Notes under the pieces: model-generated
What the model was told of the DNA's origin: nothing
The model's database searches: none
What the model saw: the letters and a program-made list of their open reading frames with translations, nothing else
In this document: positions 1,769 to 24,800 of the stretch, in pieces
How the letters are laid out: each line of letters starts with the position of its first letter
How positions within the stretch are numbered: position 1 is the stretch's first letter
Assembly: GCA_027600665.1 (NCBI GenBank)
Contig: JADGJL010000092.1
Span: 3,954 to 37,762 of the forward strand
Length of the DNA: 33,809 nucleotides
Reading direction: 5' to 3'
Source: Irineochytrium annulatum
Taxonomy: Eukaryota; Chytridiomycota; Chytridiomycetes; Chytridiales; Chytridiaceae
Made by a program: the position numbers and the translations under genes

Positions 1769-4074
1769 CTACAGTTTGGATTCCGTGTCCGTGGGTCCCT
1801 TAGACACCACCCTCACCCCACCGCCGTTCTCAACCGCCCATTTGAGCGTCGACGACACCGGTTCCACTACAGGGATCGTGCCGTCTAGCAGATACCTTTG
1901 ATTGTTTTGCTCGATGAGCGGGAGCACGTAGATGTAATTCACCATAATGCCGTAAGATTGATTCATGCCCTTATCTACAACGATTGTCAGTGATGGTTTC
2001 ACAAAGTGCAGTACCTGAGGTGTCACCCATCCAGTTCAGACGATGGAGGCACGCCCCGTTCCGAATATGAAAGTTTGCTGGAACGAAAGTCAAAATGGCT
2101 TGACATTATATGATGGGTACTTACCGACTGGATCAAGAGCAAACCTCCGCTTCTTTTCCAGAATCATGTACCTAGAGCAGAGCCTGACCATGAGGGTTTT
2201 CAACTTCAAAACCATCGCGCTATCCTTCCACCACCCTGCGGTCTCGATCGTATCCCTCAAGATCATCCACGCAGGTTTATCCGTCGACGGAACCATCTCC
2301 CGAAGAATTGCTTCTTCGCCGGGCAACAGCAACGACTTTGCAGCGTCCCCCGTGGTGGCGCTCGACTGCTCCGAAGTCGCCAACAATTTAAACTCGGTCG
2401 TCAGCCAATGGCGGAAACCCGGTATCGGGGAGAGGGTGCAGAAGGTCTCAATCTGCGGGTAGTGTTTCTGGATCTCCTTCACGCACTGCAAACAATTTGA
2501 TCAGACTATCGGCATTGGGTTGATGACTAACCCTTTTAATCAGAAAATTCCCTAAATCGACCCCACTTAACCCCCGCTGACTAGAGCTGATCGAGTAGAA
2601 AATCGCCGTCACGCAATTCTTCTCCGTCACATCCGCCCCAACCCTCCCCTCGCTATCATACACCTCCTCGCCCAAGATCCTCTGCACGTCCCACTCAATC
2701 TTCTCCACTAGCGCAATTTGAATGAACGTCAGCGGCTCGAGCGGCATGCCCTTGTGGAAAAAGGCGTAGCAGAGCCTGTTGGGACCCAGGCGCTGCTTAA
2801 GATGCGACCAGGTGGGAATCGGGTGGACCTTCTCATACTGGATGATTTTTTCTAGGATTGACGCAGGCGTCGACCAGGTAATGCGCTCGAGGTCGAGGTG
2901 GGAGAGGGAGAACCAGGATTGGAGCAGAGTTTTAAGAGACTCGTTGAGGGTACGGAGGTGAGGAGATGGGTCCTCCGCTATGAATCGCTAAGTTGGGTAC
3001 ATTCAGCAAGACTATATTGAACGTAAGGTTACCAATAAATCCTCCCGAAGGTCAACAAGGAACTTCATTCCTCCCGGCAGACTGTTGACCTGGTTAAAGA
3101 AGCGCGTGTGCTGGGGCACAAGCGCCTCGCGAAGCTGCTGCTCTGCCCGTAGAGCTGCCCGGTCCCCTTTGCCCTGAATATGCAATCAGAATGCTGCCAG
3201 TAATCCAACAACGTACAATGGCATTCTTATATGCCTCCGCATGCACGAGCACAGCCTCCCTCTTCACGCCAAACTCCTTCCCGAGTGTTGTCAGGAATAA
3301 CTTCCTCGCATCATCGTCCTTAAGTCCCAGGTACAAATCACAGCTGTGACGCGTCAGTAGCGTCGGGTACAGGTCACCACCTTCCCTTCCAACCCTAACG
3401 GCGCCAGCCAGCAGCCGCACAGTATCCGACGCCGTCGTCGACTTTCCCTTTATCGACCCGATAGGCGCCTGGCCCAACGGATCGTCCAGCAGCGGCTGGT
3501 GATAATCCGCCGCGGCCGAGTCGTGCGGGTCCGAGGAGCGCATGACGTAGGACCAGTACTTCTCGACGATCGTGGAGGGGAGTGGTGGCGGGGGATGCAC
3601 CGGCGTTGACGATTGGGCGTCGACGCTGGAAATGTCAAAGGGAGACGGAGAGGTCGGGTGGTTGGAGTCGAAGCGGTCGAGCGGGTCGAGGGATGGGAAG
3701 GTCGTCGAATCGCCGTCAGATTTCGGGTCCTGACTGGAGGAGAATGGCCGGCGTTGAAGGGGCCAGACACGCGAGTCGAGGGACCGCGAGGAGTGCGATC
3801 GCAGGAGGAGGTGCGGCGGGAGGGTGATCACGGCGGATCGCGTCGCGCCCGATGCGGATGCGGAAGCCGAGGTCGTGACGAGGTGGCAGATGGATCGCGT
3901 ACGATCAGGGGCCGGCGACGCCGAACCCGCAAAACAGAGCCTGGGGGACCGATTTGGGCGGGCGGCGGTCCGGATGGAGAGGCCGAACTGGGCAGTGGAG
4001 ACCGACTTCGCGCTGGTGCAGAACTGGCGACTACCAGGCATGTGAACACTTTTGACGAACGATATTGCGCACAC
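1769..4074 (-). CDS. MLYCD: Malonyl-CoA decarboxylase, six exons, C-terminal SKL
   Basis: Converts malonyl-CoA to acetyl-CoA and CO2, clearing malonyl-CoA that would block fatty-acid oxidation or poison organelle enzymes. Exons on the minus strand: 4074-3217, 3173-3033, 2987-2532, 2485-2125, 2077-2015, 1974-1769. Introns are 40-47 nt and the model gives 694 aa. Family landmarks are in order: an N-terminal helical region, NCVTAIFYSIS, GVDLGNFLIKRV, the catalytic-serine loop LSPIPGF (Ser504) and NFHIRNGA with the catalytic His609. The protein ends in SKL, a PTS1 peroxisome signal that animal orthologues also carry. The first 40 residues are rich in Arg and Ser without acidic residues, like a mitochondrial presequence. 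Residues of about 70-200 are low complexity and make it longer than human MLYCD (493 aa). The start may be 4074 or the next ATG at 4041. Confidence 0.93.
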
Positions 4075-4106: not shown

Positions 4107-7100
4107 ATGATGAATAATCGCGATCGCGAGCAGAAGGTGAGCCGGAAGAACGTGATGTGGATTTAGATATGCCACTACTTCAAATACTAACTTCATTTCC
4201 TGCATCCATAGCTCGCGAACGCGAGGCAGAAACTGAAGAAGTTTCAAAAGGCTCGCACCTCCGGAACGCCAGTGACTGCATCGACGCCGGAGGGTCCGAC
4301 GCCGCTGACGTCCCCTCAGGGATCAACGACGGACCTGATCAACGCGGCGCTGGTCGAGGTGTCGGCCATTGGCGATGAGAATGGCGTTGGCTCGTCGGCG
4401 TTACGAGAAGCGCCGCGCTTCTACTCCGAGACGCTGACCGCTGTGCCGGAGAGCGGGTTGCTGGCGGTGTCGGCCTCGACGCCGGCGCTCGGTGGTGGTG
4501 GGGATGGCATGACGAGAAGTGTATCTCAGGGATCTATGTTGGACTCAATGGATGATCCAAAATCTCCTGGGAGGTACGACCTTATCGAGCGTGTGACTTA
4601 ATGCTAATATGCTGATCGACTGATAGCGTGACGTCGCAAACGTCGCGCAATCTTCGTATAAATACCGGAGGGACGAAATTACCGGTGGGCTATTCCTCGT
4701 CAAGGCTACCGTGTTAACTCCTTTTTCAGACTTTAAAACGGTTAAGTCCCCAAAAGGCGTCCGCCACTACGCGCGTCTCTCCCACCAACGCCCATGTCCG
4801 AAGGCCGAGCATTGGTGCGCGGGTATGTTAGCCATCTGTCACCTCCCTGCCGTCTCATTACTTTTAGTCAACGGACAGCGTCGAAATGTCGACCGAGGAT
4901 CTCGTCCAACAGAACAATTATCTTAAAACTTCCGTCACAAACTTCACGACCGAAAATCACGCTCTGCTGCAGCGCATACGTGCCCTCGAGGAGGACAAGG
5001 TTGCGAGGGAGCAGCATGTGGAGTCGCTCGAGTCATCTGTCGCGAGCCTGCGGCAGCAGGTGTCCGAGTTCTCGTCGCAACGGAACTCGGCTTCGCAGTC
5101 GCAGGAGGAGTCCCGCAGTACCGCGGAGATTACGGCGCTAAAGATGGAGGAGATGACGAAGGCGATGGATGCTCTTAGGCTAGAGTCTGCTGACGGGATC
5201 GAGGCGGCGAGGGCCGAGAATGTGGCGTTGCAGTCGAGGCTTGTGGAGCAGGAGGATATTATTGCGACGCTGAAGGAGGAAAGGGACAAGCGGATGAGCG
5301 ATATGGAGGCACGGCATGAGGCTGCGGTGGCGTCGCTGACGGAGGAGCGGGATAGGCATATAGGAGCTATTAAATTCGTAGAGGCGAAAGCCCAGGAAGA
5401 CAAGGACGATTTGCTGCGTATAATTGAGGAGCTGCGGAGGAGCAATCCGACGACGGTTCTAGTGGAGGAAAAGTCACGTGAGGCGGAGGTTGGGGCGGAT
5501 GGCGTTGCGGAGGAAGTCATTGCGGAGAAGGAGAGGCTTATGGCCGAGATCAAAACCGTTAAAGAGGAGCTTAAAAGGCAAGAGAAAGAATCGATTGCCG
5601 AAAAGGAGAAACTGGCAGCTGAAATCGAGAACGTCACTACGGAGAGGGATAAACTCGCAGCCGATTTCGAGAAGATGAGGGAGACTATGTTGGCTAGGGA
5701 CGGCGGAGCGGACGGCCCACAACCGGCCTTCGAGTCCGATGTCAATCGGGAACCGAGTGCAGAACGAGGTCGACTTGCCGCCGAACTAGAGAGCACGACG
5801 GCGGAGAGAGATAGGCTCGCAATTGAAGTGGAGCGGATGCGAGAAGAATTGGGGAAGGGCGCGGACGAGGTTGCGGCGGAGCGGCAAAGACACGCCAGCG
5901 AGGTTAAAAACATTAAGGATGAGCTTGAGAGAGAAGCGAACGTGGTCACGGTGGAAAGAGATCGACTCAATGTGGAAATTGAGAATATCACGTCGGAGAG
6001 AGAAAGACTGATAGCAGAAGTTGAGAAGATCAGAGACGGGTCGCGGAAAAGCGTGGATGAAGTTACAGCGGAGAAGGAGAGACTTTCTGCTGAAATTGAG
6101 AACATTCGAGAAGAATTGGCTAAAAAAACATCTCGAGCATCCGAGTTAGAAGAAGAATTGCGAATTCAATCATTGAAACACATCACGGAAATGCGCGATT
6201 CAGTTACAGATCTTGCGGACGGCAGGAGTAAGCTAGAGAATGAGTTGAAGTCGATGAAATTGGATTTTGCGCATTTACAGGAGCAAAATCTTCAGCTACA
6301 GACTACCATAGAGAACTTAGAAGCGGCTTTAGCCGCAGAGCGAGCGAAGTCGGAGAAGGGTTTGCATCTCGCGAAAAGCCTTGAGGAAGCAAACTTGGAG
6401 CTTGCCGTACTCAGGAGTAAGGAGTTGGATCTTATACGAGAACGCGACGACTTAAGCCTGAAGCTCCAAGAGATGGAGTACTTTAATTCTGAGAGAGATA
6501 ACGGAACAAAAGGGATCGAGAAGGATCTCGAGGACGCGCGCAGCAAGATTACTGAGTTGAGCGTTCAATTAACAGAGTCTGAGGAGCGATACGATTCCCT
6601 GTTTGAAGCTGGAGAGCAGCATACAAAGGAACTCGAGGCCGACTTGGAAACCGTGCATGCAGCCAAAGAAGCGTTGGAGGCGGAGCTAGCATCGCTGCGG
6701 GCGGGGAAGGCGAGGCTTGAAGTTATGTTGGACGAGAGAGGAGAGCAGGATGCGGCAATTGCAGACCTAAGACGAGAATGCGAGAAGTACATCGAGGCTA
6801 TTAAAGTATTAGAGGCGGAGAGGGAGGAAGAGAAAAATGCGTTGCTTCACGAGATCACCATCCTGCGAGATGCCGGCGCTAAGATTGTCGCGGACCGGGA
6901 GAAAATCAACGAGGAGGCAGATGTGCTCGCGAACTCGGTGGATGACCTGACGGTGCAGGTTGAGGAGATCTCGTCGGAGAAAGAGCAGCTTGCGGCAGAG
7001 GTTGACGCGCTGAGAGGGGAGCTGAGCAAGGAGCAAGGGCGGATCACCGAACTCGAGGAAGAGCTGAGCATAAGAACGGGGAGGTTTAATTCGGACGTGC

Positions 7101-10100
7101 AGGATCTTGTCGATTCATTGAAGGACCTTACGGAGTCTAACGCGGAATTGAAAGCGGAGCTGAAGGGCTTGAGGTCGGTTGCTGCGCAGTCGGAGGATGA
7201 GCGTGTGGTGCTTCGGTCGTCACTTGACAACCTCGAGACTGCGTTAGCTGCTGAAAAGGCGGAGGCGCAGAAGTTGCATACTATGACGATCCGGTGCGAG
7301 GAGCTGGAGGGGGAGCTTGCGGCGTCGAAATCGGTAGCGTTTGACCTAGCGAAGGAGCGGGACACGCTGCGGGCGAGGGTTGAGGAGGCTCAGTACTCTA
7401 ACACGGAGAGGGAGAGCGGACGGCAGGTGGTTGAGAAGGACTTGGAGAACGCTATGATTACGGTCGCGCAGCTACGGACGCAGTTGACGGAGGCTGAGGC
7501 TCGGTACGATGAACTTTTCGTGGCTGGAGAGCAACACACGCAGACATTGGATACTGAACTAGAGGCATCGCTTGCGCGGAGAGATCATCTTGAGGTCGAG
7601 GTTGCGGAGATTACTCGGGAGGCTGTGTCGCTGCGTGAAAAGCTGCATCAAACATCCATGCACGTGTCGGAGGTAACATACGAGCGGGACGAGGCCGTCG
7701 CAAGGCATCAACGACTGCTGGAGAAGCTTTCCCAAATCGAATCGGAATTTGACAATATTCGGCTAGATAGGGATAGCTGGACGGCCGATGACAGCCTGTC
7801 CCGCGCTGTCGCGAAACTGATCGCTGATAAGGCAAAGCAGGTCGAACTTCGCCATGAGCTGGATGCAGCTGGAGCGCAAAGGGACGAGACAGCGCGGAAG
7901 TGTTCGGGGCTACAGGAGGATCTGGAGAATACGCAGCGGCGCCTTGAGCAGGAGAGGCATATGGTCGCGGACCTTGAAAAGGAGATGTCGGATTTGCGCA
8001 TCAATTTGAGGGATGCAGAGTCAATATGCAAGACCATCAGCCTCGAAAGAGACACTCTCCAAGACCGTTTGGAGTCAATCGAGGTGGAACTGAAGAGCGC
8101 GCGGCAGAAGATTTCGACCTTAGACTCGATCGAGGAGTCTGTAACGCTGGGGAAGGAGCTCCGGATTATGGAATTAGAAAAGATGCTGGAGCGAATGAAG
8201 GCTGACCATGAGACCGAAATCATGGCGCAGCGGGAGCAAATAGTGGAAGCTCTTAATCAGAAGGAGGCTGAGTCCCTTCGCGGGTTTGAGCTCGAGGATA
8301 GCCTTCAGGAGCTGAGGCACAATTTGTCACTTGCGACTCGAGAGGTATGCCGTTCGTCTCGAACACCTTAATTCGAGTCTTACCTTTATGTAGCGCGAAG
8401 ATCGTGACCTGCGCATCACCGAGTTGGCAAGGGATTTAGATTCAAGCAGGCAGAAGGCTCGCGAAGCGGAGGAACACCGGCTTAGTGCGGAGCAGGACTT
8501 CGACCAGCGGCTTTCGGAGCTTGAGGTGTACCTGAACGAAGCGGCCGCGAAAAATCACGCGCTTGAGAACGATCTCAATGACTTAGTATCGGAAAGAGAT
8601 AATTACCGGTTGCGCATCCACCGATTGCAGTCCGAGGAAAGTCAGCGGGTTCAGGCGCTTCAAAAGATGGAAGCAGACTTAGAGGAAAGTCGCAGGGCTT
8701 ATGAGGATAGACGCATGCAATGGCAGTCGGAGAAGTCGGCTTTAGAAAAGCAATGTCAAGATCTAAGGGTGAATACAAAATGATGAGAGGTGTGCTAACA
8801 AGTTATAGGCGAAGAAGGAGGAAGCGGTTAAGAATCTTGGCGAGGCGATTAAAACGATGAATGATTTAACTTCGGAGCTGGATCGGGTGAAGGTGGAAGC
8901 TGAACGTGTTCAACGCCAGCAAAGCCATGCAATTGCGAACCTGCGCGAGGATCTGGCGAAAGCGGATGACTACTCGCAAGAGGTAGAGCAAAAAATGAAA
9001 GTGGCGTCGAGAGAATGTGATGCTGCTCTAAAGGAGAAGCAGCGGCTCGATACGATCATCCAAGACATGCGTTCTGAACAGTCGAAACTTCGTGCAGAGC
9101 TTGACGAAGCCATCGAGCTTATCGATATGCGCGATCACAAGATCTTAGAGGTCGGTCGAACCATGGAGAGTCTTGAAGACGCGAGGCGCCAGAGCGAGCA
9201 TGTAATTTCTCGATTACAGAACGGGCTCGAGTCAAAGGAAAGGGAGGCGGAGATTTTAGCCTCCAAGCTCGAGGTCATGAAAATTGAGCTTGAGGAGCTG
9301 CGAACGATGATGCGATTCAAAGATTCGGATATTGAACGCCTGACTTTATCTTTGCGGGAAGAACAAGATCGTGGCAGCGAAGCAATGGTCGAAGCCTGCA
9401 ATTTAAAATTGAAATTGGAGGATCGCGAGAAAACCATTGATCGCTTACGGCGCGGGGTGGACGGCCCACCCGGGCGGAAGGACTTGGGCAACCCGGGAGA
9501 CGTCGGTGAAGGCGCCTCCAACAGCGCTCTTCCTTCTCCTAAGCCGCCCGCAGCTATAAACGAATTGGTTCACAGAATTAAAGTGTTGAGCTCCGAACGA
9601 GAAGAACTTCGGAAGGATTGTTTCCGAAGGGAGGTCGACATGGAGAAGCTGACGGATCGCATAAAGGTCCTCGAGTCTGATGTGAGACACCAGACTGCCG
9701 CTTTGGCTGATGCGACTCGTGGTCGAGCAGATATGCAATTCGAACTGAGTTCCCTGCGCTCAGCAGGCGAAGTGTCACGTCTTCGAATACAGGTTGATGA
9801 GCTTAACGCTATTTTGAAGGAGACTCAGCCGCTGATGGAAGAACTCGAGGATAAGCGCGAAACTGTGCGACAATTGCAGGCCGAGCTTGACCGACTCCAT
9901 GGGAAGGTGGAGGCGGAACCTGCTCAAACGAGGATGCCAAATTCGCCCCAAGTTCAGACAGCAGACATTCTGTTTGGGTCGGCTGCCGGCGAAGCTCCGA
10001 TACCGCCTCCTCGACGACGTTCTGGATCCCCTGTGCAGCGATCCGCCCAATTAATTCCGGGATCGACGACCACCTCCAACAACACCGCAGCCGCTAGGAC

Positions 10101-13100
10101 AGCTCTACAATTGGAAGTGAATATCCTGAAGAGGGAGCTCGAGCTCCGTAACGACGAGGTTGCCGCTCTTCATAAGGACTATAAGGAGCTCCTCTCTGCT
10201 GCTGAAGAGAAGGTGAAGACATATGCCAAATTGAGCGACTCTAGCTCTTCCACTATGGAGCTCTACAGAGATGAGCTGTTGAAAAAACGAAAACAAGTGG
10301 ACCATTTGCAGGATGAGTTGTTTAAGACGACTGCCTACATCAGCCAGTCGGTAGCGCAGACACCTGATTTAAGGTATTCATTTACCACATTAATGCTGTT
10401 AAACATTGTAGCTTCATTGATCTCTCGAGAGCGAATGAGGCCTTTTCTAAGGCGGGTGTAACAGCGAAGAAACTCGACGAGCTTCTGCTCTCGGCCAATG
10501 AGAAGCGGGCAATAGGGATCAGCAACGTTCAGGGTGAAACGAAAGACTCCAGGCTTGAGGTGTGTACAGCCGTTCATCGTAGATGTTTAATAAATGTAGG
10601 GCTTGGAGGAAGTTGTGTCTCAGCTCGCTACTTTACTTGCGTCAACGGAGACAAATCTTTCGATATCGCAAAAAATTTATTCCGAAGTAGCGAATCGGCC
10701 TGTATTAAGTGAGCCGGCTGCGATTGATTCGGGCAAGACAGTGAACGCAAATAATAGCCATCTCTTGAACATGATGAAGTCGCAATCGCAGTTAGTTCAT
10801 GAGCACAGGAAGGTTCTTGGAGATATGGAGAATATTTCGGAACTGCTTAAACGCGGCGTGTCCAATGTGGCCCATCATGCGGAGAAGCTCTCACCCCGTC
10901 ACGCGGGGAAACTCGCTACCGGAGTTGCGGATACTGATATCCCAACGCTCATTTCCCACTTCGTTGCTACTATTGGGGAATACCAAGGCATGGTGTCGGA
11001 CCTTATCGCCCGAAAGGACGGGATTCTCCGTGCCGTCGATGGTAACCAGGGTTCGTGCAATTTGAGTGTTAATGCACCTTTTAGGTCGACATTCACTGGC
11101 GCCAGCTGTGTCTACCGACTTGCAAATTCTGGTCGACCGCCTACGTGATGTGGAGGACCAACACAGTCTTCTGCTTGAGCAAACCCGCTACCTTGCCGGT
11201 TTCCTATCGGAAAACATCGCGGATCATATAGATCCTGCTCATCATAACGCTGAAAGGGCGGAAGAGTCTGGTTCGCGAGATTACAATTTGACCGCTGCCG
11301 AGTATAACGACCTAGTCACGAAAGCTGCTGTTGCCCAAAGCAGTGCTCAGCAAGTGGAGAACGCTCACACGCTCCTTGACGAGCATATCCGAGAAATTCA
11401 AGTCCTCAAGGAAGCGATCGAGACTATGACCGGCCACATTGCCGGTGGAATGCCGGCGAGTGAGAACCAGGCTTTGAAGCTGCATCAACGGCACCTGGAG
11501 GAGCTGAAGAAGGCGTGGTCTCACGAGTTGGCGGCAAATATGATTCTTCGAAATTTGATCGCCAAGACGCAGGCTGACACTATGGTGGCGGAGGAGGACT
11601 GGCGTCGGCAGCAAGTTCGCCTTCGCGAGGAGTATGATGAGCTGGCGGCTCTTCTTGAGGAATCACATCGGGAGCTTACCGTTGTTCGCAAAGAGGCCGA
11701 AACGAAAGATGGATTGCTGAAGGAAGCCGAGCGAAAGTTGAATGGTCGCCTTCAAGGGCAATTCTTTGAGCTCGAGCAGGCCCATCAAGATCAGGCTCAG
11801 CAACTCGAGGACATGTATTCGAAGGAGAGGGCCGCGCTTAATAAACTCATCGCAAACTTGGAGAAAGAAAGGGATCGGCTGGTCAATGATATGAATCGGA
11901 TGAAGGTATCTTTCCAGGAGAAATCAAACCACACATCGGCATCCTTTGAAGATTTATCGAATCGCTTGAAAGACTCCGAACGTGCCCGGGAGGAGCTGCG
12001 TCGACATAACCAGATTTTGAAGGACGATTTGATCCGGATGCAGAGCGAATTAGAGCGGGCACGATCGGACCTGACCTACCAAATTCGAAGTCCCGACGCA
12101 CCAAGACCGGATGCGCGCTCTCGTATTGTCTCGTTAGAACGAATGATTGACGAGCTCCGGGACGAAAAGAGAAGTCTCGAGGAGCGGCTTTCCGTTTCCG
12201 ACAGGTGGATGGAAGAAAGGGAAGACATTTTGCTCCGGTTGGCTGATGCCGAAGAAGCCCGCCGTAGTAGTGAAATGCGCTTTGAGCGTCGCGAAAGGAA
12301 CTTGATAGAAGAATCAAAACATGTTGAGCGACGGTTACGGGATAGGGAGGCGGAATTAGCCGAGGCGAGACGAATCCTTGATAGAAAAGAAACGGAGCTG
12401 ACCGCCTTCTTCGATAGTGGTGGCAATGAGCGGATGGACCAGATAATGAACAGGCTTCGGATGCAGAACGAGGATCTGGAGAAGGCTATTGCTCATCGGG
12501 ATGTTCAGATTCGGAACTTCGAGAGTCGAGTGCAGGAGCTTCTGCAGAGACAAGGCGATATGGTTCCGTATGAAGAAGCAAGACGTCGGGAAATAGATCT
12601 GGAGAGAGAATTACACCGCAGTCTTGATCAGTTGCGGCAACTTTCGGGGCAGTTGAAGGCTAGCGAAGATGTTGGTAGCGCTTTGATTATAATGATGCTA
12701 ATTCGGCACGACAGGGAAGAAAGGCCGCTGAGGCGCAGGGACATTACGAAAAGGAGAAGTCTCGGCGTATGGGTCTGAAAGTCGATGATCTGAAGCGGCG
12801 GCTTGCCCAAGATGAGGCCGTAAACAGCGCGTTGCGTCCTTCGCCCAGGGCAACAAGGGTTGAGGACCGCTTAAAGGATGAGATCAATCATCTCCGCAAG
12901 GAGCTTTACCAGGCTCGCCAGTCCACGTCGGAAATGGTCAATGTGATTCGCGAGACTTTGATCAATACGTTGGGCGAGGCATCTATTGATGTGCAAGACA
13001 GGCGTTCGTCTAAGTCTCATATTGATATGGCGAGGTGGGCAATCGTTGGGAATACAAATAATGTGCATGTTTCTGACTGTTAGCCTAGGGTTCGCAACCA

Positions 13101-13855
13101 AATGAGCTCCTTGATCTCGGAAGTTATCTACCTTCGGGCTCTTGTCAACAGGTTGCTTCTATGGAGAGCAGACCTGAAGTACCAGAAAGTTTACCTGTCG
13201 TTGAAGGTGCAGGATCTTTTGGGAAGTCAAAAGGAAACGTTGGCGTTCATCCAGGACATGGGTGTCAAGCACCCTCAGGCGGAGGTCACTGAGACCATTT
13301 CGCCCATAAGGAAGTTGCGGAGATGTGCCAACACAATCGTTGCCGTGTATCGCATGATGTATGTTACTTGAAAATTGTTACGAGCTGATGTGAGCCTTCA
13401 CCAGGGTGATGGCGAGGAATTGGCAGGACGTGCTGGAGCAAAATCGTGAATTCTTTGGTGAAGTAGAGAGTAACACGAGCGAGTGGCCCACCGACAGTAG
13501 CCCGGGCCGATGGGGCGGTGTTGACGACTCGGACGCATCTGTGAAGCAGTCTGACCTGAGTCGCATGAGCAAGAAGCTTGCCACCATGGAGAATGAGATG
13601 GCTCGCCTTCAGGTCGTTAATTCCAAACTGGAGGAGCAGATAGAGGAGCGGGAGAAGCATCGTGTGGAGCCGACAAGAGTGCGTCTTTGCCTTCATTCAT
13701 TTATTGTGTATTAACAGTGACTTCAGCAATCCCCCGACATCCGGCGAGGATCCGAGCCCAGGTGGACAACACCCACCGGAAGCAGCGGGACACGGTCGGC
13801 AAACACGGCTGTAGCAGGTGTATCATCTCCACGGACGCGTGGTCGCAATGCATGA
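4107..13855 (+). CDS. Giant coiled-coil protein with C-terminal PACT domain (pericentrin/AKAP450-like)
   Basis: Likely scaffold that anchors microtubule-nucleation factors at the centrosome, spindle pole body or basal body. Exons: 4107-4136, 4212-4573, 4627-4684, 4730-4822, 4868-8344, 8394-8768, 8809-10373, 10412-10559, 10600-11041, 11085-12670, 12715-13034, 13089-13358, 13405-13678, 13727-13855. They sum to 9129 nt, or 3042 aa. Residues 2-25 (charged, with KLANARQKLKKFQ) resemble the start of AKAP450 and GM130. Residues of about 180-2750 are almost unbroken heptad coiled coil, with a Pro/Ser-rich break near 2170. Exons 12-13 (about residues 2830-2925) read like a PACT domain: YLRALVNRLLLWRADL, then KYQKVYLSL, DMG, and a distal RRCANTIVAVYRM with ARNWQ. 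The tail is short, basic and Ser/Thr-rich. Donors at 4685 (GTGGGC) and 12671 (GTTGGT) are weak. A golgin role was considered, but the PACT match is stronger. Confidence 0.85.
5300..7630 (+). repeat. Internal protein-level supra-repeat in the PACT coiled coil
   Basis: Two diverged blocks of about 690 nt (about 6030-6720 and 6940-7630) encode matching coiled-coil segments in the same order. ELEEEL occurs at 6143 and 7049. A stretch with E-KDLE, QLTE, RYD and AGEQHT follows, with AGEQHT near 6608 and 7523. The offset is 302 to 305 codons, so small indels have accumulated. A flanking segment with GAIKFVEA near 5360 recurs as EAIKVLEA near 6795, suggesting a larger X-Y-Z unit copied in tandem. Between them, 5515-6110 holds a shorter ERxxLAxEIE repeat. 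Copies clearly differ at the DNA level, so the duplication is old. Confidence 0.75.
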
Positions 13856-14192: not shown

Positions 14193-16405
14193 ATGATGGC
14201 AGCCGCGACACCAAAGAAAGTGTCTTATTTCTATCATAGTGAGTGAACGATGCTTGCAAAGAGTTCTTGAACGAGGTGTAAATCTGCCTGTTCAGGCGAC
14301 ATTGGGAATTATCACTATGGACCGCAACATCCAATGAAGGTTTGTAAAACAATTCATTGTTAGGATTTCTTGTTCCTTCCCTCTTTTTATTTTTGTTTGA
14401 TTATTGGTTTTAATCGTAGACTGAACTAAATTTTATCTAAAATCTAGCCCCAGCGCATCCGAATGACACACAACTTGATTATCAACTACGGATTATATAA
14501 AAAGCTCGAGATCTTTGTGCGTATCAGACGCTTTCTGCGGAGATTTCCCGCCATTTCCTCCTTTTCTCGCACGACTTCTTACCCCCTCGCGTTTCTTAGA
14601 GACCAACACCTGCTACCTTCCGGGAGATGACAAAATTTCATTCAGACGACTACATTGATTTTTTGAAACGCGTGACTCCGGACAACATTGAAGAAGTGAC
14701 AAAATATCAACAAAAATGTTCGTCAGTTCAGCCAACCACATCTAATCCGCTTTCTTCTTCTTTGCAGTCAATGTCGGGGAGGATTGTCCTGTATTCGAGG
14801 GCATGTATGAGTTCTGTTCACTATCGTCAGGTAATTTCTTTCGTACTTTCGTGGCCAGTCGCAAAGATTAATATATCCTCCTCAACTTTTTAGGCGGTTC
14901 GCTATGTAGGTGTTTGGAAGGTGGTAGATAAGTTGAGATGCTTACCAATCTTTCGTCAGCCGGTGCGATGAAATTAAATCGGGGCGAGTCGGAGATTGCC
15001 ATTAACTGGGGCGGCGGGCTGCATCATGCAAAGAAGAGCGAAGCCTCTGGATTCTGTTACGTCAACGATATCGTCCTCGGCATTCTGGAGCTCTTGAGGG
15101 TTTTCCATCGCGTGCTTTACATCGACATTGACATTCACCATGGCGATGGCGTGGAGGAGGCGTTTTACTCGACGGACCGTGTCATGACAGTCAGCTTCCA
15201 TAAATACGGCGAATACTTCCCGGGGACGGGAGACATCAATGTATGTACGGTTTTCGTACGATTGTATGGCGTCGGAGTGACGAATGTTAAAAATCATTAA
15301 CCCCTTGGCTGTTTAGGATATTGGATTTGGCAGAGGGAAGAACTACTCTTTGAACTTTCCCCTGAAGGACGGCATTGATGACGAGTCCTACCGCAACATC
15401 TTCTGCCCGGTCATGCAGCACGTGATGGAATGGTACCGGCCTGGCGCCGTCGTTTTACAATGCGGCGCCGACTCACTGGCTGGTGATCGGTTAGGTTGTT
15501 TTAATCTATCCATGAAAGGTTTGTTTGCCGACGTTCGTGGTGTAACTGAGATGACTGCAATTAGGGCACGCGATGGCTCTGGAATACATGAAGACGTTTA
15601 ATGTTCCTATTCTGTTATTGGGCGGTGGGGGTTATACTATTCGCAACGTCGCGAGAGCTTGGACCTATGAGACGGCTGTAGCAATAGGGCAAACTTTACC
15701 TTCTGGTACGGACTGTTTGCTTGCGTAGCGACACTGAACTGCCTTGCGTACATAGAAATACCTTATAATGATTACTTTCAATACTACGGTTGGTTTGTGC
15801 TCTCAAGCTGCACTGGCTGAAATGATTCCGCAGGGCCTGATTTCCGGCTTGACGTCCCCGCCAGTAATATGGAGAACTTAAACACAAGAGAATACCTAGA
15901 GAAGATCAAGTACGCCTTCCTTTTGCTTGCTTCGCCGTCGTTTGCGAGTTGGGGTTTCGCTTTATGTCTAACCCCCCTTTTTCAGGTCAAAAATTCTTGA
16001 AAGTCTTCGCTCGGTGGCGAGTGCCCCGAGTGTCCAAATGCAAGGTTTAGATTATGTTCTTCTCTGCCACGAGGTTTTCATGGTTTAACCTTATATCTCC
16101 GTTAGAGGTTCCGCGTGATCTTTATTCCGATGACGAGGAAGCGGTAGAGGAGGATGCGATGAAGGACATTCGGATAACGCGTAAGTCGCAAATCCTTCCT
16201 TTCAGACTTCCCAATGCGATGTTTACTTCAATGACCTGCAGAATCCATGTCCGACAAGCGTCGAGTTCCAGAGGGGGAGCTATCAGACTCGGAGGATGAA
16301 GGCGATAGACGACGCAACCAAGTTAATTACGGGGAGGGTTCGGCGACAGGTGCAACGTCCGTCTCCGTTCCCCCGGCTTTAGCAGAGGCTCCACCACCGA
16401 CATAA
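14193..16405 (+). CDS. RPD3: Class I histone deacetylase (Rpd3/HDAC1-like), 14 exons
   Basis: Zn-dependent nuclear lysine deacetylase, in other organisms the catalytic subunit of Sin3/Rpd3-type corepressors. Exons: 14193-14238, 14296-14339, 14448-14516, 14600-14717, 14768-14830, 14894-14905, 14960-15240, 15317-15518, 15565-15705, 15756-15788, 15834-15909, 15986-16044, 16106-16180, 16242-16405. They total 1383 nt, or 460 aa. Similarity to human HDAC1 is colinear, from [18 protein letters not shown] to EYLEKIK. Catalytic elements are all present: LHHAKK (H139, H140), DIDIHHGDG with metal ligands D175 and H177, D263 in CGADSL, and Y302 in [10 protein letters not shown]. The tail is acidic (DDEEAVEED), then SDSEDEGD, and ends in a Pro/Ala-rich stretch. 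Exon 6 is only 12 nt yet encodes the conserved GGSL. Introns are 45-108 nt, and all have TAG or CAG acceptors. Confidence 0.95.
14894..14905 (+). other. 12-nt micro-exon of the histone deacetylase
   Basis: The exon is bounded by TTTTTAG on the left and GTAGGT on the right. It supplies the second and third bases of Gly, then Gly-Ser-Leu and the first base of Ser. This restores the class I sequence SSGGSLSGAMKLN, against STGGSVAGAVKLN in human HDAC1. Skipping the exon keeps the frame (12 nt) but deletes four conserved residues. Confidence 0.8.
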
Positions 16406-16639
16406 ACTTAGAGAAGCGTCGAATTGCGACGGTGTGGTCGCTTTTTTCGCTTACTTCATCATGGATTTGTCTGGAGGTCTTCTTTAAATGGCTCATCTTA
16501 AGGCGCTAAACGTCGCTGGTATTGAAACTCTTAGTTTGCTGATAATATATTACCCCAGTGCGTGCATGCATTTCTTGGCACTTTGGCTAGGTTGTGAGCT
16601 TTCCAAACACCACTAAAATCCCTGCGAAAGACACCTTCC

Positions 16640-17266
16640 ATGTTGGCGGTGATCGAAACTTGTGCCATCCCCACTGTCGCCCACAAGTCCCCGCCGTGTC
16701 GAACCACCAGCGTCTGCATGTCGACCACCCGCCTCTCAACACCGCCCATGCGCCGCACCGTATCCGCACCGCCGTCGGCCACCGCCGCCCACCTTCGCAC
16801 CCCGGCATCGATCCTCCCCAAGCTGGCCGTTGGGTGCGATCACACCTTTAACTCCTGGCAAGCCCCAAACCCCCACTCCCCCGTCCGCCGGAGCCTGCCG
16901 ATGCTCGATCGTCAACCATCTCCTCCTCCCACGCTCAACCGCAAGCGCGCGAACCCGTTTGACGACGATGATGATCAGCTCGACGCCAGTGGCATGGCTG
17001 GGACCGAAGGGATGGACGAGAAGGGCGCATTCGATGAAGACGAGGAGGGAGGACCGATGAAGTTGGAGATGGAGATGGACATGGGGATGGTTACGCCGCA
17101 GAGCAAGATCCGCGTCGCAATGGCGGTTCCTGGGGCGCCACGGAAGAAGTTCGCGGCCATCGGGTTGGGGGAATTGATGCAAATGCAGAGGCAGTCGCCG
17201 CCATCACCGTTGGGGCACAGATATAGTCAGTTCGCGACGGCGCTCGTGTTTCGGAGGGATCCCTGA
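16640..17266 (+). CDS. Uncharacterised 208-aa protein with Pro/Ser-rich and acidic segments
   Basis: I do not recognise a family. The frame is 208 aa from the ATG at 16640; a second ATG at 16706 is an equally good start. From residue 23 it is rich in Ser, Thr and Pro with several TP/SP sites. A basic-to-acidic switch follows (RKRANPFDDDDD), then an acidic Met/Glu stretch (EMEMDMGM). The C-terminal part is conserved-looking, basic and helical (PRKKFAAIGLGELMQMQ). GC and codon use match the neighbours better than the flanking AT-rich DNA. The 3' end could continue through an unrecognised intron near 17224. The predicted product is mostly disordered and probably nuclear, which is inference only. 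Confidence 0.5.
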   Translation: MLAVIETCAIPTVAHKSPPCRTTSVCMSTTRLSTPPMRRTVSAPPSATAAHLRTPASILPKLAVGCDHTFNSWQAPNPHSPVRRSLPMLDRQPSPPPTLNRKRANPFDDDDDQLDASGMAGTEGMDEKGAFDEDEEGGPMKLEMEMDMGMVTPQSKIRVAMAVPGAPRKKFAAIGLGELMQMQRQSPPSPLGHRYSQFATALVFRRDP

Positions 17267-17524
17267 TGGCGGGTCATGGTCATTGGTTGATTAAGTCGCA
17301 GCATGTATACGCCTTATCGCAGTCTTTATTTATGATGCTTTGGTTCGCGAACCTTGTTTCTTCTTCCCTGCCATCAATAGCTTTAGCTCTGCTGTCTTCC
17401 TTACACTGAGTCATTCGCACACACATCCTAACTCGCTCTGATAACCTTCGCCGCACGCTTAGCCCTTGCTTCCCGACTATCCGTACTAAATAAACTCGCT
17501 TGTTAATCTGTTTGAACAAGCGAA
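17267..17524. other. Intergenic region upstream of the MMtag-family gene
   Basis: 258 bp without a convincing frame. It presumably holds the 3' UTR of the unknown gene and the promoter of the MMtag-family gene. No TATA box or repeat stands out. Confidence 0.4.
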
Positions 17525-18390
17525 ATGTTCAGCGGGCCGATCAGAGGTTGGCGATCTCGTGCATCCAGAGCCGATGTTGACTTCACATCCACACCAGGCG
17601 GCAATCGCGGCGGCCAAGGCGACTTCAAGTGGGAGGATGTGAAGGAGGACAAGTACCGGGAGAACTACCTGGGCCACTCCGTCCACGCCCCCGTCGGGCG
17701 ATGGCAGAAGGGCAAGGATCTTAACTGGTACAGCAAGGACGGGAAAGGCGAACCAAGCGAGGCGGATAAGCGGGTCGTGAGAGGGAGCGAGATTAAGTCG
17801 ATCAAGGACCAGGAGATTGAGGCCATGGCTGAGGCATTGGGTTATACAGGAGGGAAGCGAAAGACGTCGGACCAGGTGTCCAAAGCGGAGATCAGGAGGC
17901 TGCTGCAGCTGGATGAGGATGAGGAGGAGGAGAGAAACGTAAAGGGCCTGGGGTTCGGCAGGTTCGTGCATATAGCTGCGTGTGTTTATGATGAGTAATG
18001 CCAACGGTTGGTTTGGTTAGGACGATGCCGACGGGGGAAGTCGAGGTCGATGACGATCCTGCAAATGAAATGGAAGCTGGCCTGATAAATGCAAAGGTGG
18101 AACATAATAGTCCTCACTCTGGCTGTATACTAATATTGTTCCGCTTCTAGGGCAGTGCCTTGAAGGTCAAGTCGGTCGTTGATGAGCAGAATGGGGAACC
18201 AGGAAAGAAGAAGAAGAAAAAGAAGGACAAGGAAAAGGAGAAAAAGCACAAGGACAAAGATAAAGACAAGGAGAAGAAACATAAGAAGAAAGATAAGGAG
18301 GAAAGGAAGGAGAAGAAGAGGAGGAAGCTAGATCACGACGTCGGCGGTCGGGAGCGTGGGGGGGAACGGGATTCCGACAAGAGACAGTAA
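17525..18390 (+). CDS. MMtag-domain protein (MMTAG2/C1orf35-like), four exons
   Basis: Exons: 17525-17546, 17598-17961, 18021-18096, 18151-18390, giving 233 aa. The N-terminus reads MFSGPIRGGNRGGQGDF, then WEDVKEDKYRENYLGHS, then APVGRWQKGKDLNWY. This is the diagnostic start of the MMtag family, whose human member is MMTAG2. After a charged middle comes GLGFGR. The C-terminal third is a lysine tract of KKK, KDKEK and KHK units (about 18195-18340) ending in an arginine-rich tail. The family's role is poorly known; it is usually described as nuclear, and lysine tails like this suit RNA- or nucleolus-associated proteins (inference). Intron 1 is 51 nt with no in-frame stop, so its retention would insert 17 residues before the conserved motif. 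The gene converges on the C11orf65-like gene with a 135-bp gap. Confidence 0.88.
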
Positions 18391-20372: not shown

Positions 20373-21344
20373 TCAGTACTCCGCAGGGAATCCGCAAGGG
20401 CTGACGTGCATCCTGGTGAACAGGTCCTGGATGCATACCGTACCCTGCGCGCAGACCTGAACCACCCACTTCCCGTTGTCGCACTGCAGGAACTCGGAGC
20501 CGCCCTCGGTCGGGCAGCGGTAATCAACGCCGCTGCACACCTCCCGGCCGTCGTAGCTCCCACTGTAGGAACCATAGGGTTCGGTCGGCTCGGGTCCTTC
20601 GTACCCGTACCAGTGGTCGGTGGACTCTGGCTCATCATAACCGTAGCCGTGTTCCGTCGGCTCGGGCTCGTAGTAGGTCGGCGTGGGCTTTGGGGAGTAG
20701 ACCGACCCGGCAGCGTAAGAAGGAGTGCTGGCTGGCTTAGTGTAAGCAGGCTTGGTGTGGGCGAGCTCTGTGAAGGCAGGCTTTGTGTATGCAGGCGTGG
20801 TGCGAGCGGGAGTGGTATAGGCCGGCTTGCTGTATGCTGGCGTGGAGTAGGCGGGCTTCGAGTAGGCAGGAGTTGAGTAAACCGGCTTAGTGTAGGTCGG
20901 CTTCGTGTAAACAGGAGTCGTGTCGGCCGGCGTCGTGGTGTCTCTCGGCTTGGTGGTGTAAACCGGCGTCGGGGTGCCGTAAGCAGGTGTTGTAGTGTCC
21001 TTCGTGGTCGAGTAAGAGCCATAGGACGGTTCCCGCTGGCAAGAACTGGCGATCGCGCCAAGGATCGCATTTTCGTCGTCCTCGAGGATCTTGAAGTCGT
21101 CCTTGGAGCAGCTTGACTGGCACTTTCCGACCATCGACCTGATGTTCGCATCGGAGGCCAGGGTGTCGGCGGCCAAGTCCGAGAGATCGGCGCAAATGTC
21201 GCTCGGAGTCGCGTAAACGTCGTGGAAGGCTTTCTGGGCGCACTCGGGGAGGGCGCTAACGGTGACGAGGATGTCATCGACTAAGGTCGCTGCGGCGCCG
21301 GAGGCGAACAGGGCGGCGGCGGAGAGAGCGATGTGCAGCTTCAT
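20373..21344 (-). CDS. Secreted Cys-rich protein with Thr/Pro/Tyr repeats and a CBM19-like C-terminus
   Basis: Intronless, 323 aa. Residues 1-19 form a clear signal peptide with an Ala-rich end, so the protein is predicted to be secreted. Residues 20-105 form a helical module with five cysteines (35, 51, 75, 79, 102), somewhat like fungal CFEM domains but short of their eight. About 65 residues (142-206) then repeat the units TKPAY/STPAY/SKPAY, likely extended and O-glycosylated. A second Tyr/Glu/Pro repeat (EPEPTEHGYGYDEPE) spans about 226-260. The last 55 residues hold six cysteines (270, 277, 288, 298, 304, 317) around QCDNGKWV and CAQGTVC, resembling the CBM19 chitin-binding pattern. There is no C-terminal hydrophobic GPI signal. 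It may bind the cell wall or a host or substrate surface (inference). Confidence 0.85.
   Translation of the reverse strand: MKLHIALSAAALFASGAAATLVDDILVTVSALPECAQKAFHDVYATPSDICADLSDLAADTLASDANIRSMVGKCQSSCSKDDFKILEDDENAILGAIASSCQREPSYGSYSTTKDTTTPAYGTPTPVYTTKPRDTTTPADTTPVYTKPTYTKPVYSTPAYSKPAYSTPAYSKPAYTTPARTTPAYTKPAFTELAHTKPAYTKPASTPSYAAGSVYSPKPTPTYYEPEPTEHGYGYDEPESTDHWYGYEGPEPTEPYGSYSGSYDGREVCSGVDYRCPTEGGSEFLQCDNGKWVVQVCAQGTVCIQDLFTRMHVSPCGFPAEY
20727..20921 (-). repeat. Tandem TKPAY/STPAY coding repeat in the secreted protein
   Basis: About a dozen pentapeptide units of the form (T/S)(K/T)P(A/V/T)Y, each 15 nt, lie in tandem. Individual units are degenerate (AFTELAH, for instance), so the array is diverging but stays in frame. 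Copy number is likely to vary between strains. Confidence 0.8.
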
Positions 21345-21884
21345 AGTTGTTTGTTGTTGGTCGTAGCTGTTGTGGTTATCGTTGGATGAGTTATCTTCGA
21401 AGTCGCATGCGCGATCTTTAACTAATCGACGGTCCGCTGTGTCCGCAGAGGGAGGCTGGTCAAGATGCGCCTGCTTTCCACTGGCCTTGACTCAAATAAG
21501 ATATCGAACAGGCTTGGCCGAGAATCGTACATCCACACATTCCCACTCGATGAAGGCTGGCGAGATCAGCTCAAGAAGTTAGCTTGTGTGATTGAGGCTC
21601 ACGTTATACTGATATTGGGAGGACTATCTCCTGCTTCAGCGAGTACGATCTTACGCCGGCTGGCGACCCCAAACTTCTCAACCCTGTCGTTGAGAAAGCA
21701 CGGAGCCAGCAGCACCACTGGTTGGAAGATTTTGGGTGAGGAAGCTACGAATTATTTTACGAAACACTATTTTGTCCAACCTGATTCGAGAATCAGTTTA
21801 AAGCAGACAGGCAGAGGCTGGTGATGTACTCTTTGCATTATTTTTACTAAGTTCGCAACGCCACTCTTAGGACGCCCTCCCCTT
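21345..21884. other. Region between HBS1 and the secreted-protein gene, with one doubtful ORF
   Basis: 540 bp holding the promoter of the secreted-protein gene (its leader just before 21344 is rich in AAC on the minus strand) and the HBS1 3' end. A plus-strand frame of 119 codons at 21465-21824 has a fairly protein-like composition but no motif I recognise and no support from context. I would not call it a gene without transcript evidence. Confidence 0.35.
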
Positions 21885-24800
21885 TCACTTTACGCGCTCG
21901 AGTATATCCATGACAATCCCTGCAGCCACTACCGTCGACCCGGACCGTAATGTAAACCTCCCCAGCTCCTTGCTATCCTTCGACGCTTCCAGACACACCG
22001 GCTTCAAAAGCTTGACGTCGATAACAGCAGTAACATTTTTAGTCAGAGCCCGCGGATTTTTTTTCGTGATCTCGCCCGTGCTTTTGTTGATGACGGCCAA
22101 AAGCTTAGACACTACCGCCGACTCCGCTATGCTCTGGTGATGCAAAACGACTGGGACGCCGATGGTGATAGGGACGGCAATGTCGAAGGTTAAAATTTTA
22201 GCCCGAAAGAGCGTCGCGACCGGAATTGGCTTCAGCGGATCACATATGACATTCCCAACACTTGCCGAAGTGTCAACATGAAAGCTCAAAGCAATTATAA
22301 AAGAGTTTTACAAACCTCAGCTGCTGAATGTCAATATTGCCCAAGCTGATGACGACATTATCACCCGCCACCGCCCACTTCGCCATCTTATTTGAAACCT
22401 CAATGCCTATGCCAAATCAAAGCCAATTTTATTGAACCAGGGTACCTTTGACGACACCCGTTTCTCCCAAAGGCATCAACAAGATTTCATCGCCGATCTG
22501 CGTCGACCCGGCCTCAATCCGACCCGACACCGACACGTTGGCCCCGCCTCCAAATTGCCCTCCTTTGTAGAACTCCGTCACGCAGAGTCTGAACGGCTTC
22601 TCAACTGGCCTCGATGGAGGTTCGAGAAGATCTTTGCAACATGTCAGTGATCGCTCAGAATGTGTCGCAAACCCAAGCTCTCAATCAACGTAGGGCCTTG
22701 GTACCAGCTAAGCAAATTCGCTTGTGTTCGCTTTACCAAATTTTCCCCCGTAAAGCCACTGCACGGAACAAAGGTGACCTTCTCGCGGCGGAATCCGGCC
22801 TGAACCAGAAACGGGAGCAGCTTGTTTTCGATCTCATCAAAGCGTTCCTTCGACCAATCGCTCTGCAATTGTTAGCTCTATGAGAAATGCGTGGTGCTAA
22901 CTTACCATATCGAGCTTGTTTACGGCGACGACGAGCTGTGACACGCCGAGACTTCTCACAAGCAACGCATGCTCCCTCGTTTGCCCACCAGAATCAAAGC
23001 CCGTCTCGAACTCGCCCTTTGTGCTGTCGACGACAAGGAGTGAAACATCCGCCTTTCATCCATTTCAATTGTCGACCTCGCACGATGTGTTTTACCTGGC
23101 ACGCCCCCGAGATCATATTCGGCACGAAATCCCTGTGTCCCGGCGCGTCCAGCAATGTATACCGATGCCGCTTCGTCTCAAAATTCGTAACAGCGATATC
23201 AATCGTAATACCCCTAAAAATCTCAATATCGCAACAAGTGATATGATCATACCTTGTACGCTCCTCCTCCGTCGCATCCAAAACCCACGCGAACGCAAAT
23301 GACCCCTTCTTTAGCTTCTCGGCTTCATGCTCGTTCTTCTTCATCGTCCGCTCATCCACCTCGCCGAGCAGGCAAAGCAGGTGCCCCATGATCGTGCTCT
23401 TGCCCGCATCGACGTGCCCGATTACAATCAGGTTCAGCGAGTCCTTTTCGTCACCGCGCCGATGGAGCTCGGACTGGATGTCGATCTTTTTCTTCTTAGA
23501 CACTTTGGGGGGGTCCGATTTGGCAAGTTCCGGTTTGGGTACTTCGGCGGGCTTGCTAGATTCCGTTTTTGGTGTTGATGGCTTCTGTACGGGTGACGGT
23601 TTTGAAACCGGTGTCGGGGCTGCAGTCTTCGCGGATGCAGTCGCCGGCGATGGAAGACCGGGAGGCAAGGACGATTGAAGGCCGGGAGGTTTCGACGGGT
23701 TGTTTCCTTTATACCAAGTCAGAAAGGAATCGGCGACGTCAGAGGTTACCTTTATTTAACCGGGCAGACTTTACAACATCGTCCGGACTCGGCGTCTCGA
23801 ACTCAAAAGCTTTAATGCCGTTACTCCGGGCGGTCCCTTTTGAGAGGACGGAGGGATTAGTCTCTGTCGTCGCGGTGGGCTGATCCATGAAGAATGAACC
23901 CATTTTTGAGGGTTTAGCGGTAAATCCATCCTTCGCGTTTGTCCCTCCTTTATCCAGCAGCCCGACGTTCCCAGTCCGAAATGATTCGAGTAAAGCTCCG
24001 AGGTTTGGTCCCGTGGCACTAGGAGCATGCATTGTGGCGCCAAAAGGCAGCTTCGTTCCGGTCTTCGGCAGCAACGACCCAGTTTGAGACCCCGACAGCA
24101 GCCCACCGCCGCCAGGAAGCAACGAGGACTTCAATCCGCCGCCGGCCGAAAGCAACGAAGACTTCAGTCCGCCACCACTAGGCAACAACGACGACTTCAA
24201 CTCGCTGCTTGGGAGCAGCGACGACCTCAGTCCACCGCCACTCGGAAGAAGCGACGAGGTCAGTCCGCCGCCACCTGTAAGCAGCGCTGATTGTAGTCCG
24301 CCCGTTGCAAGTAATGTCGACTCCACGTTCGCGCTTCCGAATAATAACGTCTTTACACCGACCGATCCCTCCTCAGGGTCCCCAGAACTCAACACTGTCG
24401 CTGTCCCCGATGACAGTTTGAGCGCCGAAGATTCCACCAAAGTACAAGGCACAATATAGCTATCTCACCTCTTGCGTTTGAACTATCGAGTATATGATTG
24501 ATGGCTTTCGTCGGATCTTGATCGTTTAATCGCAGAGCCTCCATAACTCGCTCTAAGGGTACGTCGCCGACAACAGCCGTTACGGCGGAGACCAAGCTGG
24601 CTGGTAACATGGTAAGTACAGATCACCCCGAAAGGCCTTCGCACGGTTGTGTTCTTCAGATCTCGTCGTCACCAGGCGTCCATCCACAAAGGTTGCGGCG
24701 ACCTGAGCGACCGCGGGCTCCTCCTCGTTATCCTCCTCCTCCACATACTCGTCTACAAAAGTCAGCAAACCAAATTGGACGCGATCGGGGCCAACCTTCG

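Follow-up and report, generated by a model that had tools for sequence, protein, structure and literature searches.

A 3042-residue PACT-domain protein of the chytrid Irineochytrium annulatum as a probable member of the pericentrin/AKAP450 family

Human pericentrin (PCNT) and AKAP9 (AKAP450), which are animal paralogues, are both giant coiled-coil proteins with a C-terminal PACT domain, and each has a basic N-terminus of KLxxxxxKLxxF type. A C-terminal PACT is also present in fission yeast Pcp1 and budding yeast Spc110, which are much shorter than the chytrid protein described here. According to the available text of one study (PMC4034690), Spc110 and Pcp1 carry SPM-CM1 at the N-terminus together with PACT, AKAP9, D-PLP and the PACT proteins of Basidiomycota have other N-termini, and deviating forms of SPM and CM1 are predicted in mammalian PCNT. 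The PACT region is reported to bind SAS-6 in fission yeast and fly, a conserved segment forming a complex with SAS-6 and calmodulin in the fly (PMC6559791, in excerpt). Published views of the chytrids diverge. Excerpts of three studies report pericentrin in all fungal species analysed, chytrids included (PMC6559791), pericentrin in most fungal species (PMC6070874), and fungal homologues of AKAP9, PCNT and PCM1 (PMC4046923), whereas the excerpted text of a 2025 study describes chytrids as without clear orthologues of pericentrin and CDK5RAP2, with only short shared domains in the case of pericentrin (PMC12659703). By title and the start of the abstract, with subscription journals mostly outside the scope, we found no paper devoted to chytrid pericentrin. 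The locus described here offers a concrete gene for studying the origin of pericentriolar material, and is useful because it bears on this disagreement.

The window, that is the whole 33,809-nucleotide stretch of DNA analysed, comes from contig C998 (3954-37762) of Irineochytrium annulatum (Chytridiales, Chytridiomycota by taxonomy). We consider it very probable that the gene encodes a pericentriolar scaffold and represents the pericentrin/AKAP450 (PACT) family in this chytrid; it is a new protein of a known family, fungal AKAP9 and PCNT homologues having been published already. Joining 14 exons gives 3042 codons and one terminal stop (9129 nt) with no inner stop in the frame, and all 13 introns, of 38-75 nt, are GT..AG, so that the coordinates, length and exon number given in a preliminary description of this DNA are correct. 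The gene, its 5′ end and the neighbouring coding stretches are as follows.

4107..13855, + strand: whole gene, 14 exons, 3042 aa, from the joined reading frame and long alignments to 17 other-species homologues, which span the whole protein only when composition correction is off
4107..4136, + strand: exon 1, MMNNRDREQK, the start of the N-terminal motif; several homologues start M.NREQKLAAAK
4212..4253, + strand: rest of the N-terminal motif, LANARQKLKKFQKA, from homologue N-termini and alignment A1
444-1481, + strand: GHMP kinase (Pfam)
2448-2987, - strand: malonyl-CoA decarboxylase (Pfam)
14962-17962, + strand: histone deacetylase and MMtag coding stretches (Pfam)
20373-21491, - strand: carbohydrate-binding CBM19 (Pfam)
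22994-23755, - strand: EF-Tu-type GTPase (Pfam)
29506-31491, - strand: ankyrin repeats (Pfam)

Exon 1 has just 10 codons, with two candidate start ATGs at 4107 and 4110, and the intron that follows falls between K10 and L11, inside the N-terminal motif. The exon is backed by homologues starting M.NREQK; P0004, P0006, P0011, P0012 and P0016 begin M.(N/S)RE and continue with the motif, as exons 1 and 2 do together. The annotations of P0002, P0003, P0008 and P0013 place unrelated residues directly ahead of the motif, which suggests, as far as the proteins can tell, that a small exon may have been missed there at the same intron position. At the weak donor GTTGGT after 12670 the flanking residues ED-GRKAAEAQ are gap-free in four other-species homologues, these being the four compared at junctions in a full-length alignment of nine of the 18 other-species homologues plus the same-species protein P0001.

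P0001 (hypothetical protein HK101_011664, Irineochytrium annulatum) is the public model of the same gene, with 100% identity over the 251 residues searched, and is excluded from all homologue counts. It retains some intron sequence close to its start, is missing pieces of the gene, and continues into the histone deacetylase/MMtag stretch at 14962-17962 (+); this joining of the PACT gene to the downstream gene is a database error worth correcting. Since prediction programs do fuse genes in this way, our own model could in principle join two adjacent genes, one for a coiled coil (4107-8344) and one for PACT (8394-13855). The suggested split site is the following.

8345..8393, + strand: intron 5, judged an ordinary 49-nt intron from its splice sites and from homologue alignments

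With composition correction, the best alignment crosses the junction (residue 1340) in just three of 17 homologues. With filter and correction both off, all 17 other-species homologues cross it; with the low-complexity filter and composition correction on, the three that do are P0002, P0003 and P0004. The homologues' models are themselves predictions, and as the search was confined to 0.55-1.75 times the query length, how long they are does not independently prove a single gene. A split at 8344/8394 is unlikely because the two halves lie only 49 nt apart, with canonical splice sites and coil on either side, and we regard the two-gene reading as very improbable.

At the C-terminus lies a clear PACT domain.

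13147..13423, + strand: PACT domain (residues 2839-2915), with the intron 13359-13404 inside it; Pfam match, and the only genome match at E 0.001

Pfam PACT matches residues 2839-2915 of 3042 with E 3.2e-15 and 56.7 bits against a cut-off of 25. The domain thus lies where it had been predicted, at about residues 2800-2940, and with the Chytridiomycota source this score bears out the main proposal of the preliminary description, a giant PACT protein in a fungal genome. A profile search of the 26.9-Mb assembly, in six frames and without splicing, gave this single PACT match at E 0.001, and none of 14 control genomes was matched by PACT, SAS-6_N or Cnn_1N. PACT is present in all 16 homologues scanned (16 of 19 proteins, leaving out P0001, P0014 and P0018); P0014 and P0018 carry a precomputed PF10495 assignment. 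Aligned with the chytrid proteins, human PCNT has in common with them the YQKxYL core, then an S...TL..I...G(V/I) stretch, then a basic helix, and the region of putative calmodulin binding is conserved in this alignment. Built from 16 chytrid PACT regions, with no human row and without P0001, P0014 and P0017 (P0019 was not in the set), a profile scores 47.5 bits against the human PCNT C-terminus, compared with a maximum of 3.4 in 300 heptad-preserving shuffles; a profile from an alignment that included the human row scores 47.2 bits, with shuffles reaching 4.2. The PACT region matched nothing at E 10 among sequences of solved structures. Apart from PACT, Pfam scans covering every piece of the protein gave only weak coiled-coil matches, none reaching its cut-off.

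Comparison with other chytrids indicates that the protein is not an oddity of one genome. A first protein search, with returns confined to lengths of 0.55-1.75 times that of the query, gave 18 proteins, one of them from the same species (P0001) and 17 others of 2367-4730 aa; a second gave four hits, the query and three proteins from the first search, and a search with a 1400-residue query, admitting about 770-2450 aa, added P0019 (1654 aa). The search for orthologues among chytrids that had been proposed earlier thus yields 18 other-species homologues in three orders, those looked up belonging to Chytridiales (three species), Rhizophlyctidales and Rhizophydiales, with one genus unplaced within Chytridiomycetes. 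Three of the predictions, P0003, P0014 and P0018, look like fusions, as they carry unrelated domains. Other chytrid PACT proteins, such as P0008 of Rhizoclosmatium globosum (2471 aa, partial) and P0002 of Phlyctochytrium planicorne, fall in the same length class, a likeness partly forced by the search length limits. Among the named matches, from length- and shared-word-limited searches that would miss distant relatives, there was no giant homologue outside Chytridiomycota. Given PACT in 16 of 16 proteins scanned, from three orders, we conclude that the window protein is a chytrid pericentrin-type protein.

Conservation is uneven along the chain. In 150-residue windows compared with nine other-species homologues, identity is 5-39% at residues 301-2250, then 39-63% at 2251-2400, 26-57% at 2401-2550, 21-45% at 2551-2700, 35-61% at 2701-2850 and 28-57% at 2851-3000. 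With composition correction the best homologue alignments span 278-1966 columns, not the full length. Because of this low mid-protein identity and the partial alignments, the case for orthology depends chiefly on the N-terminal motif and the C-terminal third. The long PACT proteins (16 of 16) and the motif (11 of 18), found in species that include R. globosum, the species of PMC12659703, favour true orthology and speak against that study's view of chytrid pericentrin.

The window identities also show that a second region, upstream of PACT, is as well conserved as the PACT region itself.

11285..11974, + strand: conserved block (residues about 2251-2480; ELKKAWSHELAANMILRNLIAKTQ ... LNKLIANLEKERDRL), from homologue comparison

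It is found in all 18 other-species homologues, with 34-58% identity over query residues 2230-2560, and its invariant positions among 16 proteins include W2364, H2366, N2371, L2374, R2375 and K2380 (P0002 numbering). The block matches no Pfam family, and the human PCNT C-terminus gave no match to it above shuffle level (best 0.8 bits, against 5.8 for the best shuffle), in which respect human PCNT differs from the chytrid protein. That it serves as a docking site is a guess. The new details of the chytrid protein are this second conserved block, assigned to no Pfam family, and an internal duplication unmatched in other species.

Assignment of the N-terminus is complicated by its resemblance to a golgin. 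The motif occurs in 11 of the 18 other-species homologues and is missing from P0007, P0009, P0010, P0014, P0015, P0017 and P0019, of which several seem to begin inside later sequence. In seven aligned chytrid N-termini (alignment A1, comprising the window protein and six of the eleven motif-bearing homologues) R4, L8, A11, K14, L15, F18 and R22 are invariant. A profile of these seven, searched against solved structures, had the GM130 N-terminus as the best two of six matches, weakly (15.7 bits, E 0.094), and a hand-made consensus reached GM130 at E 0.0046, a ranking that holds within a structure library that may lack AKAP9 and PCNT N-termini. Raw scores of the window protein were 58 against the GM130 peptide, 44 against AKAP9 and 41 against PCNT, values reached by 0, 0 and 4 of 1000 query shuffles respectively, and six chytrid proteins, the window's included, score higher against the GM130 peptide than against AKAP9 or PCNT. 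The GM130 (GOLGA2) N-terminus, TRQSKLAAAKKKLREYQ, is to be compared with the chytrid NREQKLAAAKRKLxxFQ; it is this short motif alone that the two proteins share, and GM130 is not known to have a PACT domain. Of the AKAP450-type N-terminus proposed in the preliminary description, the motif is real and conserved, but its likeness to GM130 is no weaker than that to AKAP450, so that it does not identify AKAP450.

This likeness raises the possibility that the protein is a GM130-type golgin joined to PACT and acting mainly at the Golgi, its motif binding the acidic tail of p115 and its PACT domain tying the Golgi to the centrosome. A p115/Uso1 gene is present in the same genome (L004, contig C842); 14 residues ahead of its stop lies the acidic run DGEDEEEGEEDE. 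In the published excerpts available, GM130 residues 13-39 form an NLS-like stretch within the p115-binding N-terminal region, and importin-alpha binding to GM130 suppresses the p115-GM130 interaction (PMC6754406); AKAP9, PCNT, CDK5RAP2 and PCM1 are enriched in human p115 tail precipitates, an enrichment that may be indirect, since AKAP9 binds GM130 (PMC7619307). The motif nearest to GM130 is, on the other hand, only about 18 residues long, and the GM130 match itself is weak. Pfam detects no Golgi-anchoring family in the protein, a golgin-like coil match (GOLGA2L5) falling far under its cut-off; GM130_C was absent from the Pfam matches of every protein piece and had no match in the genome or in any control genome. 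A mainly Golgi-acting golgin is thus in our view unlikely, and such a reading would in any case be compatible with a centrosome role. The motif may nonetheless provide a link to the Golgi, with p115/Uso1 as a candidate partner.

A SAS-6_N match (68 bits) on another contig reveals SAS-6, a centriole gene, in the same genome, in agreement with the earlier view that the organism has a centriole or basal body. Tcp10_C and IFT57, two more markers of the centriole or cilium, had no genome match in an exon-by-exon search that is a weak test for either, no control being matched by Tcp10_C and three by IFT57, none over cut-off. CM1 (Cnn_1N) is also encoded in the genome, on contig C562 (42.2 bits). Searched piece by piece at E 1, the window protein gave no CM1 match, though a degenerate CM1 would escape this search, and the 16 homologues scanned gave none at E 0.01. 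These results bear on whether the chytrid protein is a Spc110/Pcp1-type receptor, merely longer, that binds gamma-tubulin complexes directly through SPM-CM1. PACT is common to both, and SPM and CM1, albeit deviating, are predicted in mammalian PCNT (PMC4034690, available text); the N-terminal SPM-CM1 of Pcp1 and Spc110 is nevertheless the point of difference, with CM1 undetected in the window protein and its homologues and present elsewhere in the genome. We judge a direct receptor of this type very unlikely. With no CM1 detected, the chytrid proteins are in this respect more like AKAP9 and D-PLP than like the yeast proteins.

For the preferred reading, a pericentriolar scaffold of the pericentrin/AKAP450 family, the sequence shows the reading frame, the PACT domain and the conservation, from which we infer location, orientation and partners. 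Judging from animal and yeast PACT proteins, the C-terminal PACT domain would attach the protein to the wall of the centriole, probably together with calmodulin; the roughly 2600-residue coiled coil would extend outward as a rod, and the basic N-terminal helix could bind a partner at the far end, candidates being the acidic p115/Uso1 tail or importin. Because CM1 is not found in the giant protein, gamma-tubulin complexes would probably be recruited by the separate CM1 protein or by an undefined site.

Humans have the two paralogues PCNT and AKAP9, whereas the chytrid genome gives one PACT match; as AKAP9 and PCNT are animal paralogues, the chytrid gene is at best a co-orthologue of both. It is conceivable, though rather doubtful, that animals split an ancestral protein into PCNT and AKAP9, that ascomycete yeasts shortened it and gained SPM-CM1, and that residues 2251-2480 form an unnamed docking domain. 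We give this scheme slightly less weight than we otherwise would, because SPM-CM1 predicted in mammalian PCNT would make CM1 older (PMC4034690, available text).

In the middle part of the protein lie the following features.

4868..10373, + strand: exons 5-7 with introns, a long rod, probably coiled coil (residues 182-1986), from composition and heptad power
6182..6697, + strand: duplication copy 1 (residues 620-791), ungapped score 342 at offset 305
7097..7612, + strand: duplication copy 2 (residues 925-1096), from self-comparison

This middle part is charged and proline-poor, with four prolines within residues 181-1680; of 71 windows examined for heptad power, 18 lie above the 99% shuffle level and 53 do not. 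The two copies, of 172 residues each, share 40% amino-acid and 53% DNA identity, and their score of 342 compares with 67-78 in five heptad-preserving shuffles. The other chytrid PACT proteins differ in this respect: none of the 18 other-species homologues has a counterpart of the 305-residue-offset duplication at a similar score, the best self-match being 159. This lineage therefore seems to have gained part of the length, even if the homologues are of similar total length. Shorter repeats, at an offset of about 39, are also seen between residues 395 and 645, and in several other species the protein matches itself at short periods, with scores up to 159.
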